NCBI GenBank assembly: GCA_024275435.1
Contig: JAJRZC010000160.1
Location: forward strand, 1-43,046
Source of the DNA: Alphaproteobacteria bacterium
GTDB taxonomy: Bacteria; Pseudomonadota; Alphaproteobacteria; Rhizobiales; Hyphomicrobiaceae
Direction: 5' to 3'
Length of the DNA: 43,046 nucleotides
Shown here: in pieces, positions 15,604 through 35,659 of the stretch
Layout: each line of letters opens with the position of its first letter
Position numbering within the stretch: position 1 is the stretch's first letter
The notes under the pieces: generated by a model
Databases searched by the model: none
What the model was told of the DNA's origin: nothing
What the model saw: only the letters and a program-made list of their open reading frames with translations
Made by a program: the position numbers and the translations under genes

Positions 15604-16551
15604 TTATCCATTAAGGCTGCCCAGCGCAGCCTCAAGCTCCTCTGGAGTCCCAATATATGCTGATTTGAGCGACTTATCGGTGCGCCTCACCAGCCCCGCG
15701 AGCACTTTTCCCGCACCAATTTCAAAAACATCCGTAACGCCATTCTCGCTCATGCACATCACACTCTCACGCCAGCGCACGGTGCCAGTCACCTGCTCGA
15801 CCAATCTTTTCTTGATTTCTTCAGGCTCTGAAATAGGCGCAGCAACCACATTGGATATGACTGGCACAACAGGTGTTTTTACAGTCACATCGGCAAGAGC
15901 CTTTTCCATTGCATCAGCGGCAGGCTGCATCAGCGCACAATGAAATGGTGCCGACACTGGCAACGCAACGGCACGGCGAACACCGTATTCTTTTCCAATA
16001 TCCGCAATCCGATCAATAGCACTTTTATGGCCCGATAAAACCACTTGGGCAGGTTCATTATCGTTGGCGATCTGACACACATCGCCCTGCGAAGCTTCTG
16101 AGGCGACCTTGGTCGCCACATCAATTCCAACGCCCAGCAAAGCTGCCATACCACCTTGCCCTACGGGAACAGCCGCCTGCATCGCCAGACCCCGTAACTT
16201 CAGAAGCTTTGCAGTATCAGATAAACTGAAAGCACCAGCTGCAGCCAAGGCTGAATATTCACCAAGAGAGTGACCAGCAATAAACTTGACTTTATCCTTC
16301 AATGAAAAGTCAAATTCTTTTTCCAGGACCCGCATCACCGCCAGTGAAACAGTCATCAACGCCGGCTGAGCATTCTCTGTTAGCGTCAACGTCTCTTGAG
16401 GACCTTCCCACATGATCTGCGAGAGATTCTGTCCCAACGCCTCATCAACCTCTTGGAAAACCTCACGTGCACAAACATACCGCTCAGACAGGGCTTTGCC
16501 CATGCCGACGGTCTGGCTGCCTTGTCCTGGAAATACCAATGCAATTGCCAA
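15604..16551 (-). CDS. fabD: malonyl-CoA:ACP transacylase FabD
   Basis: Transfers malonyl groups from CoA to acyl carrier protein. The frame extends upstream to 16611, but the normal FabD opening (AIALVFPGQGSQ) begins at a TTG at 16549-16551 with AGAAGG seven bases upstream; I take that as the start, giving 315 aa, the usual length. The nucleophile S95 is in GHSLGEYSALAAAG, and the partner histidine is in APFHCALM. It heads the minus-strand fab cluster and is divergent from rpsF. Confidence 0.95.
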   Translation of the reverse strand: MAIALVFPGQGSQTVGMGKALSERYVCAREVFQEVDEALGQNLSQIMWEGPQETLTLTENAQPALMTVSLAVMRVLEKEFDFSLKDKVKFIAGHSLGEYSALAAAGAFSLSDTAKLLKLRGLAMQAAVPVGQGGMAALLGVGIDVATKVASEASQGDVCQIANDNEPAQVVLSGHKSAIDRIADIGKEYGVRRAVALPVSAPFHCALMQPAADAMEKALADVTVKTPVVPVISNVVAAPISEPEEIKKRLVEQVTGTVRWRESVMCMSENGVTDVFEIGAGKVLAGLVRRTDKSLKSAYIGTPEELEAALGSLNG

Positions 16552-19622: not shown

Positions 19623-19670
19623 ACAAATTTTTGCTTCATCGACATCGGCTGATTTAGCCGGCAACGCCTC

Positions 19671-19709
19671 GGGCGTCGGGTCAACTCTCTTATGCCCGAC
19701 GCCCGTTTC
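19671..19709 (+). terminator. terminator after rplI
   Basis: GGGCGTCGGG (19671-19680) and CCCGACGCCC (19695-19704) make a perfect 10-bp GC-rich stem with a 14-base loop, then GTTTCG. The T-run is short but the stem is very stable. It probably ends the rpsF-rplI transcript, so dnaB would need its own promoter. Confidence 0.6.
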
Positions 19710-19913
19710 GTATCCTCAGGAAGATGCTTTTTATATGTATGATCTTTGATCACGCTATAAGTTGTATCTCCGCACTTATACCTTACCAAATCCAACGAAT
19801 CACAAGGCAATCCCTTTCGCCGCGCACAAGCATAAAAATCCCCTTCTTGTGCATGGAATGTGGATGCTGCATCTTGGCCGAAAATTTTCTACCGAATCAA
19901 TCATTGTCTACCC

Positions 19914-28083: not shown

Positions 28084-28913
28084 GTCTGCGCCCCGGCGTT
28101 CTTATCACCAGCTTTCAGATGCTCAAATCCTTCAGGTGGACGGGCTTTGCTATAAAAGCGAAAGAAATTTTCGCTTGTTGCACGGGCCAGTGCCTCAATA
28201 GAAATTCCACGCTCTTTAGCCATAATCGCTGCCGTATGCGCCACAAAAGACGGCTCATTGGTTCTGCCTCGATGCGGAACCGGAGCCAAATAAGGCGCAT
28301 CCGTCTCAACAAGCAATTGAGAAAGTGGAACATCCTTTGCAATATCACGCAACGACTGCGCACTCTTGAAAGTCACAATACCGGAAAAGGAAATATAAAG
28401 ACCCAGCGCCACAGCGCGCTTTGCCAAATCCGGCCCTCCCGTAAAGCAATGTAGCACAGCGGGAAACGGACCTTTTTCAAACTCTTCCTCAAGAACACGC
28501 GCCGTATGCTCATCCGCTTCACGCGCATGAATTTCCAAAGGTAGTCCCGTTTCCCGCGCCGCCTGAATGTGCAATCGAAAGCCTTGTTCCTGCGCCTCAA
28601 TAGGAGAATTATCATAGTGATAATCAAGACCAGCTTCCCCAACGGACACGCATTTTGGATGTTCTGTCAGCGCAATAAGCTCTGACAATGAAACATCAAG
28701 CTCCTCGTGCGCATTATGAGGGTGTGTTCCCACCGAGAAATAAATGTCGCGATAAGCCTCGGCGATGGCCCGATAACGCTCTACCTGACCAATGCGCGTT
28801 GAGATCGTGACCATGGTGCGTACATCGGCCGCCTTGGCCCGAGCGACAATCCCATCGAGATCATCAGCAAACTCAGGAAAATCCAGATGGCAATGATGAT
28901 CCACCAGCATCAT
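28080..28913 (-). CDS. tatD: TatD family metal-dependent hydrolase (DNase)
   Basis: Metal-dependent nuclease/hydrolase of the TatD family with a TIM-barrel fold, implicated in DNA 3'-end processing. It is 277 aa. Metal ligands are visible in [30 protein letters not shown] and LHCFTGG, and the final motif is ETDAPYLAP. It is translationally coupled to both neighbours by 4-bp overlaps. The precise cellular role is not shown by the sequence. Confidence 0.92.
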
Positions 28914-30520
28914 GCTTTTGTGCCCTTCTTGAGTTTCTTTTCAGACTTGCCACGGTCTTCGCTTTCTGGTTCCACATAACGGGGAAACACACCACTGGGC
29001 GCTGGCAGCTCCTGACCTGCTTTAAGGCGTCCACCCTCGCCTAGAGAGCCAAACGCACGAGCGTTTTCTGCCACGTTCAATTGATCCAGTAGACGGCCGC
29101 AAGATCCAGGCATCACAGGTTGTGCAAGAATAGCAAGCTGCCTGACAACATCCAAAGTAACATAGAGGATCGTTTCCATCCGTTTGAAGTCAGTTTTCTT
29201 CTTGGCCCAGGGCTCTTCATTGGCAAAGTAGCGGTTGGCCTTGGCGACCACATCCCACACGGCGTCGAGATAGCGGTTTATGGCTTGAACATCCATCGCC
29301 TTTCGCGCCGAAGCAAAAATCTCATCTGTAGCTTTCAAGATCTCCAGGTCTTCAGCCGTGAACTCGCCCGGCTCCGGAACCCTACCTCCACAGTTTTTCG
29401 CTACCATCGACAACGAACGCTGTGCAAGGTTGCCCAGGTCATTGGCAAGATCTGCGTTCGTTCGATTGACAATGGCTTCATGGCTATAGCTGCCATCTTT
29501 TCCAAACGGCACCTCACGCAAAAGAAAATATCGCACCTGATCAAGCCCATAGGCATCAACCATTGAGATGGGATCGACAACATTGCCGATCGATTTTGAC
29601 ATCTTTTCTCCGCGATTAAACAAGAACCCATGGGCAAAAACCCGCCTGGGCAATTCGATCCCCGCCGACATCAAGAACGCGGGCCAGTAAACCGCATGAA
29701 AGCGTACAATATCCTTACCGATCACATGCACATCAGCCGGCCAATAGGACCAACGGCTATTGCTCTCGTCTGGAAAACCGACACCTGTAATGTAATTTGT
29801 CAGTGCATCAACCCAAACATACATCACATGCTTGTCATTACCCGGAACCGGCACACCCCAATCAAAAGTCGTGCGTGAAACGGACAGGTCACGCAGACCA
29901 CCTTCAACAAAACGAACGACTTCGTTGCGACGTTCCTTGGGTAAAATAAAATCAGGGTTGGCCCCATAGTGCTCGAGAAGTTTGTCCTGATAGTTTGATA
30001 GTCTGAAGAAATATGTTTCTTCCTCAACCCACTCCACCGGTGTACCTTGAGGCGATAACTTCACCCCATCTTCTCCGACAGAAATCTCCTCCTCATCGTA
30101 AAAAGCTTCATCACGCACAGAATACCATCCCGAATAGCTGTCGAGATAAATATCACCTGCCGCATCCATGCGCCGCCAGATTTCCTGAACGGAAGCATGA
30201 TGTCTCGGTTCACGCGTCTTGACGAAATCATCATTCCTGCACCCCAGGAGAGAGACAAGTTCCTCGAATCGGGCTGTGTTTTTTTCAGCAAGTTCCGCAA
30301 CACTGATGCCCTCTTGACGAGCGGTTTGCAGCATCTTGATGCCATGCTCATCCGTCCCCGTCAGAAAAAACACATCGCGCCCGCTTAAGGCTTCAAAACG
30401 TGCAATGGCATCCGTGGCAATTGCCTCATAGGCATGGCCGATATGCGGCGGGCCATTAGGATAAGAGATGGCCGTGGTAACGTAGAACGGCTTCTTTTGC
30501 GCCATAGCAGTACAGTCCAT
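28910..30520 (-). CDS. metG: methionyl-tRNA synthetase
   Basis: Class I aminoacyl-tRNA synthetase that charges tRNA-Met, including the initiator. It is 536 aa. HIGH is at residues 26-29 (PPHIGHAYE), and KMSKS is in [11 protein letters not shown]. The connective domain lacks the zinc-binding Cys-X2-Cys pairs, so it belongs to the zinc-free single-knuckle form; the C-terminal dimerisation extension is also absent. The ATG at 30520 is supported by GGAG 7 bases upstream, whereas the ATG five codons in has none. It is followed by tatD with a 4-bp overlap and preceded by a structured leader. Confidence 0.96.
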
Positions 30521-30837
30521 GTTGTAGCTCCGAGCATAGGCTCGAAACTTAGATATTTTCCATATCTAGGAGACGGAAAATAGATTCAAGGGATTTGGGT
30601 CCCGTTGCGGTTCAAGGGTCGCAATCTTCCCGGGAGGGACATACCATCGAGTTAGTGAATCCAAAAACCCAAAACAATAATTTTAACTCATTTTCTAGCG
30701 TCGTCCCCTCGGGCTCGAGGTGACGGTGTCGCAACACGTGTTAGATACACCGACTGGATCAAGAAAAGAACCCGCCCCGTCGCCCTCAAACTGAAAAAAA
30801 CTGAAATCTATTGCGCCACATCCCCAAAGGCTCGGAA
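30521..30837 (-). other. holB-metG intergenic region with five inverted repeats
   Basis: 317 bp with no supported gene. It contains five inverted repeats (listed in the next feature), several of them strong. A stretch of seven T at about 30795-30801 on the minus strand lacks a convincing stem before it. An AT-rich segment at 30660-30700 could hold a metG promoter on the minus strand. Confidence 0.5.
30531..30752 (-). promoter_or_regulatory. structured leader upstream of metG
   Basis: Inverted repeats found by eye: CGAGC/GCTCG at 30531-30544 (touching the metG ribosome binding site); a 9-bp stem with one G-U pair at 30548-30570; a two-part 5+5 bp stem TCCCG-TTGCG/CGCAA-CGGGA at 30600-30635; CGTC-CCTCG/CGAGG-GACG at 30702-30725; and CGGTGT/ACACCG at 30724-30752 enclosing the palindrome AACACGTGTT. 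Together they suggest a structured 5' leader or small RNA rather than plain spacer. No known riboswitch class was recognised. Confidence 0.4.
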
Positions 30838-31968
30838 TCAAGCAGCCTTACGGGCAAGCTCGTGAACCTTCTGAATGGTTTCAATAAAGAAGGCTTTTCG
30901 GTCCAGATTGAGAGCAGCCGCTTCGGCCTTTGAGCGCAATATATCCTCCCATAAAGACGCCCATTGCGGAATTCGTTGTTCATCAATTAGTCTTTGTGCA
31001 AGCTCAACATCCTCTGGCGTGCCTTCGCCTTTCATACGAGCAAGCACAAGTTGTGACATCCGCTCCAAAAGCAACTCCATAAAAAGATCGAACTTTTTCA
31101 CACTTGCAATAGGCGCAAGCTTATCGCCCAGAGCATGGACCGAATGCCAGACAGGCTTCTTAATGGAACGCAACACACCTTCTACGTCTGAAAAAATATC
31201 AACGCCTCCTATTCCCGCCAGCCCTAAAACCCGTCCAACACGCCCACTCCCAAGAACCAATAAACTCTCCCAATCCTCATCGCCAGGCATCGCCATTTTG
31301 GAGGCTTCAAATGCATGTCGAGAAGCGCGATCCAGCTCTGCTTGTGACAAAACTGACATCTTGAGCAAACGGCATCTGGAACGAATGGTCGCCAGCAATT
31401 GTCCAGGCTCTGACGTAATAAGCAGAAAAATGGCGCGTTCCGGCGGCTCCTCTAAGGATTTCAAAACGGCATTGGCGGCATTGATATTCATCTCATCAGC
31501 CGTATCGATAATGACAATGCGCCATGATTGCTCACTGGCACTATGCGTGAGAAAATTACGAACACGGCGAACTTCATCAACAGGAATGGTTGTTGCGAAC
31601 CGTTTCGTTTTCAAATCATACGGCCGGCGCAGAACGAGCAGGCCAGGATGCGATTGTGCACGAACAAGCCGCGCCGTAAGGCTGTCTCTTCGTAAGCCCA
31701 GAATACCTTGAGACGGATCTCTTTCATCATCTTTAGCTAAAATGTATTTTGCAAAACGATAGGCAAGCGTTGCTTTACCAATCCCAGTCAGTCCCGAAAG
31801 CAACCACCCATGATGAACTTTGCCAATCTGGAAGGCATCAGCCAATTCCCTCTCGGCATCTTGATGACCGTAAAAAATATAATTGTCTCGTGGATGCGCA
31901 AACCCTTCCACGCGATCAGATTCCGGCATCGGATCACTGTCTTTTAAGGATGTAACGCGGCGCGCCAT
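30838..31968 (-). CDS. holB: DNA polymerase III delta' subunit
   Basis: Clamp-loader subunit that pairs with delta and tau/gamma to load the beta sliding clamp. It is 376 aa. The AAA+ fold is clear: a Walker-A-like loop GLTGIGKAT (about 59-67), IIDTADEMNINAANAVLKSLEEPP (sensor region) and RSRCRLLKMSVLS. The clamp-loader zinc-module cysteines are not obvious. It follows tmk by 6 bp, so both are likely cotranscribed; tmk-holB is a conserved pair. Confidence 0.92.
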   Translation of the reverse strand: MARRVTSLKDSDPMPESDRVEGFAHPRDNYIFYGHQDAERELADAFQIGKVHHGWLLSGLTGIGKATLAYRFAKYILAKDDERDPSQGILGLRRDSLTARLVRAQSHPGLLVLRRPYDLKTKRFATTIPVDEVRRVRNFLTHSASEQSWRIVIIDTADEMNINAANAVLKSLEEPPERAIFLLITSEPGQLLATIRSRCRLLKMSVLSQAELDRASRHAFEASKMAMPGDEDWESLLVLGSGRVGRVLGLAGIGGVDIFSDVEGVLRSIKKPVWHSVHALGDKLAPIASVKKFDLFMELLLERMSQLVLARMKGEGTPEDVELAQRLIDEQRIPQWASLWEDILRSKAEAAALNLDRKAFFIETIQKVHELARKAA

Positions 31969-31974
31969 GATGTC

Positions 31975-32598
31975 TTACGTCCCCTTCAGTATTCGCGACT
32001 TTACGGCCTCGAATACATCTTTAGAAACCGCTTCTACATTGCGCGAGCCGTCTATCACAACACACCTTTGAGGCTCGCGCGATGCTATATCCAAAAAGCC
32101 CTGACGTAAAACCTCGTGCTCTTGCTTTGTCGCTGCATCATACCGGCTAAGAGCACCGCGAACCCTGGCACGTTCCATACTTAGCTCTGCAGGAACATCC
32201 AAGATTATCGTCAGGTCTGGAATATATGGTCTTACCGTATGACGCTCCACCATCTCAATGAACTGTGAACAGACCCCACCCAACATACCTTGATAAACTC
32301 GCGAAGAATCAAAGAACCTATCGCAAATGACCCACTTCCCGGATTTAAGCGCCGGCGCAATCGTCTCAGCAATATGTTCCACCCTGGCAGCAGCAAAGAG
32401 CAGGAATTCCGTTTCACTCGCCGCAGGGCGTTTAGCCAGAATGAGGTCGCGGATTTTTTCGGCAAGTTCAGACCCTCCCGGCTCACGGGTGACAAGAACT
32501 TCGCCTCCAAACTCGGATAAAAGCCGCTTTTTCAGCAGCTCGACCTGAGTGGATTTACCCGCCCCCTCGCCACCTTCGAATGTAATGAACTTTCCCAT
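31975..32598 (-). CDS. tmk: thymidylate kinase
   Basis: Phosphorylates dTMP to dTDP. The P-loop GGEGAGKST follows the start, DRFFDSSRVYQG is the nucleotide-binding DR motif, and LDVPAELSMERARVRG is the lid region. The frame extends upstream to a GTG at 32634, but the ATG at 32598 gives the typical MGKFITFEGGEG opening and 207 aa. The ribosome binding site is weak. Adjacent to holB and upstream of nothing but a short gap to dacF. Confidence 0.95.
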   Translation of the reverse strand: MGKFITFEGGEGAGKSTQVELLKKRLLSEFGGEVLVTREPGGSELAEKIRDLILAKRPAASETEFLLFAAARVEHIAETIAPALKSGKWVICDRFFDSSRVYQGMLGGVCSQFIEMVERHTVRPYIPDLTIILDVPAELSMERARVRGALSRYDAATKQEHEVLRQGFLDIASREPQRCVVIDGSRNVEAVSKDVFEAVKSRILKGT

Positions 32599-35569: not shown

Positions 35570-35659
35570 GGATGGGTGGCCGAGTGGTTGAAGGCACCGG
35601 TCTTGAAAACCGGCGTGGGTGCAAGCTCACCGTGGGTTCGAATCCCACCCCATCCGCCA
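35570..35659 (+). tRNA. tRNA-Ser(UGA), 3' CCA encoded
   Basis: The cloverleaf is complete. The acceptor stem GGATGGG pairs with CCCATCC (35649-35655), with discriminator G and an encoded CCA at 35657-35659. The anticodon stem CCGGT/ACCGG encloses the loop CTTGAAA with anticodon TGA at 35604-35606, which reads UCA. The long variable arm (near 35614-35632) and G discriminator are class II features of tRNA-Ser. The T arm GTGGGTTCGAATCCCAC is canonical. No integrase or repeated 3' end is adjacent. Confidence 0.97.

Follow-up and report, generated by a model that had tools for sequence, protein, structure and literature searches.

Does the gap upstream of metG, noted for its inverted repeats, hold a regulatory leader, or does it consist of spacer in which inverted repeats have arisen by chance? 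The window, that is the whole stretch of DNA analysed, spans 43,046 nucleotides of a 424-contig alphaproteobacterial assembly (94% complete) that is the sole member of its genus in the sets searched. The gap lies on the minus strand, in the gene order dacA-like, tmk, holB, metG, and tatD, and the metG leader is presumably transcribed from holB.

30521–30837, minus strand: holB-metG intergenic gap, 317 bp, 48% G+C (window, 51%)
28910–30520, minus strand: metG, methionine–tRNA ligase, starting at ATG30520 or at ATG30505, the latter aligned with relatives
30838–31968, minus strand: holB, DNA polymerase III delta prime

Inverted repeats across the whole gap

The initial annotation had placed five inverted repeats in the gap, and all five were found in the minus-strand sequence where it had them. 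Four are given here and the fifth, as hairpin H1b, in the next section.

30544–30531, minus strand: repeat CGAGC-CTAT-GCTCG, visible in the sequence, part of hairpin H2
30634–30601, minus strand: two-part stem, CCCG/CGGG and TTGCG/CGCAA with a 6-nt bulge; 60-nt windows have z −1.1 to +0.8, not beyond chance
30725–30702, minus strand: CGTC-A-CCTCG/CGAGG-G-GACG stem, weakly beyond chance (60-nt window 30732–30673, z −2.2, 3% of shuffles)
30752–30724, minus strand: CGGTGT/ACACCG enclosing the palindrome AACACGTGTT; windows have z −0.7 to −1.0, not beyond chance

The density of these repeats, which had been called unusual for plain spacer, did not hold up against shuffled controls. The minus strand of the whole gap has a minimum free energy (MFE) of −97.2 kcal/mol compared with −91.5 ± 5.1 for shuffled sequence (z −1.12, equalled by 14.8% of 500 shuffles), and the plus strand has z −0.30; separate earlier runs gave −1.15 and −0.45, respectively. 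Perfect stems of at least 4, 5, 6, and 7 bp number 14, 6, 2, and 1 against shuffled means of 10.2, 2.5, 0.7, and 0.2, counts matched by 19%, 8%, 19%, and 14% of 500 shuffles. Most of the inverted repeats are thus the chance yield for this length and composition. Folding against shuffles gave no excess for the gap as a whole and a clear one for its last 60 nt, a caution that eye-catching inverted repeats in a 317-bp gap also arise in shuffled sequence and that only the metG-proximal segment stands out. The hexamer CGAGCC occurs three times on the minus strand of the gap (30544, 30717, and 30834) in loosely alike contexts that form two loose repeat families, a borderline observation.

A predicted hairpin pair directly upstream of metG

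30526–30549, minus strand: hairpin H2, predicted 10-bp stem with loop CUAU, −13.0 kcal/mol; includes the repeat 30531–30544 and pairs GGAG 30531–30528
30554–30582, minus strand: predicted hairpin H1a, UAUUUUCCGU...AUGGAAAAUA, 10 bp, the form favoured by the 60-nt MFE fold
30550–30568, minus strand: predicted hairpin H1b, UAGAUAU-GGAAA-AUAUCUA, corresponding to the repeat annotated at 30548–30570 and present in the whole-gap MFE fold
30528–30531, minus strand: GGAG, possible Shine-Dalgarno sequence for ATG30520 (7-nt spacer)
30549–30563, minus strand: short frame MENI* (ATG GAA AAT ATC TAA), ending at the base of H2

The last 60 nt (30582–30523) reached z −5.41, with 0 of 200 shuffles as low, and −4.95 in another run. 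No value at or below −4.9 occurred among 1434 non-overlapping 60-nt background windows on both strands (lowest −4.77), for which, unlike the site, the offset was not optimised; shifting the site through nine offsets moved its z between −2.6 and −5.3. When the 43 kb were scanned in steps of 10 with 50 shuffles, the site (z −4.55) was the third distinct minus-strand peak, and four plus-strand windows lay below it on the same grid. The fold is therefore notable, not unique in the window.

The two other minus-strand peaks and the strongest plus-strand one lie elsewhere. The strongest local fold of the minus-strand scan, at 19657–19716 and strong on both strands, is an almost perfect, G+C-rich hairpin with TTTCGT after it, located between frames that their translations suggest are rplI-like and dnaB-like; it is probably a terminator. 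The second distinct minus-strand peak is a 60-nt stretch at 15847–15906 (z −4.7), and the strongest plus-strand local fold (32031–32090, z −5.8) lies inside the tmk frame.

H1a and H1b overlap and are therefore mutually exclusive. The initial annotation had the last hairpin abutting GGAG; the two do adjoin, but this understated the structure, in which a 10-bp extension (30549–30526) pairs GGAG entirely. Predicted unpaired probabilities of GGAG are at most 0.002 at 37°C and at most 0.022 at 60°C, and an RNA thermometer was rejected on the ground that the model keeps GGAG paired from 15 to 60°C. The MENI* frame lacks a clear Shine-Dalgarno sequence; such frames are common by chance, and this one may have originated that way.

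Initiation zones of the two candidate metG starts

The consequence of H2 differs between the two possible starts. For ATG30520, the unpaired probability averages 0.009 across the zone from −13 to −6. Among the 30 window open reading frames (ORFs) with 180 aa or more this is the lowest value, and of 224 relatives (mean 0.47) 222 lie above it, L226 and L138 being equally low. The corresponding zone of ATG30505 is open at 0.613, a value that 171 of 224 relatives do not exceed. By the definition of a Shine-Dalgarno-occluding hairpin, the zone is paired for the former start (0.009) and not for the latter (0.613), so any idea of a translational damper depends on ATG30520. Spacing from GGAG fits ATG30520 better. 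Homologues align with ATG30505 as their start, and an extra in-frame ATG within 30 nt upstream occurs in only 13 of 224 relatives; L138 and L139 of the sister genus also have one 12 nt upstream. The earlier proposal of a structured metG leader stands in part, in that the metG-adjacent sequence is structured beyond chance and GGAG is predicted to be buried if translation starts at ATG30520; for its ligand-sensing component no support emerged.

Conservation of the gap and searches for known classes

No homologous DNA for the gap was found in 40 relatives, in 103 family genomes (best E 0.013, matches of 18–43 nt), or in 397 order genomes (best E 0.0014, with four non-self matches at E ≤ 0.01), and no second copy was found in its own genome (best non-self E 0.98). 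The gap comparison thus yielded no homologous leader, and no conserved leader structure, at any of these levels. The family genomes gave 17 non-self matches at E ≤ 0.1, 11 of them on the G+C-rich stretch 30740–30698; in all nine of the 17 that were examined, a stop-free frame of at least 210 codons spans the match, and these nine were therefore attributed to coding sequence of G+C-richer genomes matching by chance rather than to leader homologues. A 26-nt match of L134, from the order set, to the H1 segment was set aside, about 0.7 such matches being expected over 397 genomes. Two own-genome matches gave no lead: L113, which lies inside a long frame, and L114, with E 1.8. Phage and plasmid DNA yielded only matches of 27 and 25 nt (E 0.3 and 1).

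Gap length and content vary among the nearest relatives. Genus g41, the nearest by MetG identity (seven genomes), has gaps of 45, 52, 53, 54, 62, 83, and 261 bp, of which the longest, L138, is filled with large palindromes. Repeated palindromic units are also seen within the holB-metG gap of L061/L163. None of 224 relatives has a z for the last 60 nt as low as that of the window (lowest −4.44, L210), a result compatible with either a quirk or a real lineage-specific device.

Searches for known RNA classes agreed with the annotation that no known riboswitch class is recognisable. At gathering scores, Rfam returned one tRNA in the whole window (35570–35656) and nothing in the gap, and a permissive scan of 30300–31000 (E up to 10) returned one snoRNA model at a chance level of 16 bits, its gathering score being 40. 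Among the relatives searched, metG shows no conserved core of a T-box or SAM/SAH riboswitch. The suggested sensor of methionine, SAM, or tRNA charging therefore found no backing, either as an Rfam match or as a homologous leader in relatives. Within 30000–31400, a sigma-70-type consensus scan gave 0 promoters with 1.1 expected by chance, a result uninformative for this organism, and the sole match to an intrinsic attenuator (G+C-rich stem plus T run) lies inside metG at 30149–30125, with none in the leader. A dispersed palindromic repeat of the REP or MITE kind has no further copies in the 424 contigs of this 94% complete genome (best non-self E 0.98). Five open stretches were compared with Pfam as possible remnant genes, and the one sub-threshold match (SEHBP, E 0.0029, 17.8 bits with a cut-off of 27) was taken as chance.

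A CGA-ATG-TGA element in metG leaders of relatives

Other genera of the family carry CGA-ATG-TGA or CGA-ATG-YGS-TGA upstream of metG, mostly 61–103 nt before it. The element occurs in 29 of 38 long leaders (at least 100 nt, or with the holB end not located, in which case the last 260 nt were read) and in none of 55 shorter ones; L207 and L210, in which the holB end was misplaced, are among the nine that lack it. One carrier, L151, has the variant CAAATGTGA.

Element between holB and metG: L004, L010–L014, L017, L061, L142–L145, L147–L151, L156, L160, L169, L173, L179, L182, L187–L189, L193, L195, L197
holB ending exactly in CGA ATG TGA (Arg-Met-stop), nine letters identical to the free-standing element, 16 loci in all: L015, L034, L035, L047, L052, L053, L055, L058, L069, L075, L087, L089, L097, L102, L218, L233

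Of the 42 leaders that have both a CGAATG motif and an end of holB, the second group makes up 16, and there the motif consists of the last holB codons; in three more, the holB end is misplaced. Flanking sequences in the ATG-TGA class covary to form an enclosing hairpin, with a mean stem of 4.76 over 17 distinct instances; swapping the flanks gave 3.88 ± 0.26, and 2 of 2000 swaps did as well. The ATG-codon-TGA class (class B, 11 instances) lacks flank covariation, since 1395 of 2000 swaps did as well. It is possible that the element is a minimal start-stop frame or an RNA element; the CGA preceding ATG is also conserved, which translation alone would not require.

Mini-ORFs are in excess in the leaders generally, occurring in 47 of 139 (shuffled 9.8 ± 2.8, antisense 10) and, after thinning, in 43 of 122 (antisense 8, shuffled 9.2 ± 2.8). 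The leaders counted are related to one another. On the antisense strand, too, frames of exactly two codons are in excess (23 with a real stop), so common descent by itself can yield such peaks and the mini-ORF counts are not independent. Outside the family, relatives of Rhizobium repeatedly show ATG-codon-stop frames about 49–65 nt ahead of metG; after thinning, 15 of 75 leaders outside the family have one (shuffled 4.9 ± 2.0).

Several further features of these leaders were seen. ATG-NNN-TAA/TAG with a variable middle codon is present, about 49–65 nt ahead of metG, in the Rhizobium-type leaders L067, L081, L088, L093, L103, L105, L106, and L108–L111, several of which have a conserved ACTTGnTGTTTC-like stretch in front of it. 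In genus g6, ATGATCTAG resembles part of a promoter on our reading. A general regulon motif was considered for CCGAATGTGA, present five times in G007 and 11 times in G110, and dropped, just one copy in each lying before metG.

The leader of the window (L002) lacks the CGAATG(YGS)TGA element, and CGAATGTGA occurs 21 times in its genome with none in the gap. The sole ATG-codon-stop frame in the gap is ATG AGT TAA at 30691–30683, 171 nt before ATG30520 and without the CGA context.

Weighing the explanations

The reading we put forward, with belief and doubt about evenly balanced, is that the gap is spacer peculiar to this lineage, carrying close to the metG start a pair of hairpins that acts at most as a simple constitutive translational damper; the pair is more probably a local quirk than a new riboswitch. 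With ATG30520 as the metG start, H2 would pair GGAG and lower initiation in cis, and could be melted by an upstream ribosome or by ribosomal protein S1, giving a constitutive damper with no ligand. If it starts at ATG30505, H2 would lie outside the initiation zone and would probably be inert or affect only mRNA stability. A ribosome terminating at the MENI* stop, at the base of H2, would open H2. Which ATG is used, and whether metG expression is affected at all, are matters of inference.

A functionless spacer, in which the strong last 60 nt are the tail of many chances in a neutral gap, is a tentative alternative that we consider somewhat less probable. The whole-gap z values (−1.1 and −0.3) are what it predicts, as are the lack of conservation in the own-genome, family, and order searches, the several other sites in the 43 kb with equal or stronger z in the 50-shuffle scan, and the unoccluded aligned start, ATG30505. 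It sits less well with a z of −5.4 unmatched in 200 shuffles, with the absence of any value of −4.9 or lower among the 1434 background windows (not offset-optimised as the site was), and with the placement of the hairpins exactly before metG. Decay of a palindromic-repeat insertion like that in the sister-genus gap L138 seems unlikely. It would account for a length of 317 bp where six of the seven sister-genus genomes have 45–83 bp, and palindromes do occur at the same spot in L138 (261 bp) and as repeated units in L061/L163; the three CGAGCC copies, in two loose repeat families on one strand of the gap, also fit it. Against it, the genome holds no second copy (best E 0.98), and neither the L138 nor the L061 units resemble the gap in blastn at E 0.1.

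A more elaborate scheme, which we think improbable, has metG in this family controlled by ribosome events on minimal upstream frames, with start-stop initiation reading the charging of initiator tRNA, the product of MetG. The frames would be the conserved AUG-stop or AUG-codon-stop elements of most long leaders, which in one subgroup sit within the loop of a covarying hairpin; in the lineage of the window, such a frame would have been replaced by MENI*, whose stop touches and would open the GGAG-burying H2. Very improbable is that the gap encodes a small RNA of its own or a small protein: frames as long as 41 aa do start there and end before metG, but nothing speaks positively for them, the sole Pfam match is the sub-threshold SEHBP one taken as chance, and the plus strand folds like shuffles. 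Least credible is control of metG by a sensor of a metabolite or of tRNA, be it of the SAM, SAH, or T-box kind or of a new class. A location ahead of an aminoacyl-tRNA synthetase gene and the predicted combination of mutually exclusive H1a/H1b with a buried GGAG would suit one; yet Rfam gave no match, up to 397 order genomes gave no homologues where a ligand sensor is normally conserved and recurrent, and the segment structured beyond chance is short.

On the spacer-with-hairpins reading that we prefer, the window itself offers at best one more gene with its initiation region folded shut, in a non-conserved arrangement. The element before metG in many Hyphomicrobiales is potentially a more general lead than these hairpins and, if translated, would make it possible to test directly whether bacteria use the shortest possible reading frame to sense the charging of initiator tRNA.

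Comparison with known systems

RNA thermometers offer a general comparison class, which H2 resembles in that a U-rich arm pairs GGAG and from which it differs in being predicted to stay closed up to 60°C. The SAM-II (SAM_alpha) riboswitch likewise concerns methionine-related genes in alphaproteobacteria; its targets in Rhizobiales, in the parts of PMC4239095 drawn on here, are metY, metA, metX, and metXW, metG lies outside these named targets, the word metG does not appear in the main text of that paper, and the gap has no Rfam match. One open-licence literature collection returned nothing on an alphaproteobacterial metG leader or a bacterial start-stop frame before metG. Start-stop upstream ORFs, as treated in passages of PMC5972666 that concern eukaryotes, resemble the ATG-TGA and ATG-codon-stop frames in the metG leaders of relatives, whereas the window has no such frame at the conserved place.

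The nearest parallel to the window itself is the Shine-Dalgarno-occluding hairpin, a known general kind of translational control. The present case differs from that class in that no trigger was found, that no conservation was seen in the genomes searched, and that either ATG30520 or ATG30505 may be the start codon, and resembles it in a stable 5′-leader hairpin that is predicted to pair the presumed ribosome-binding site.
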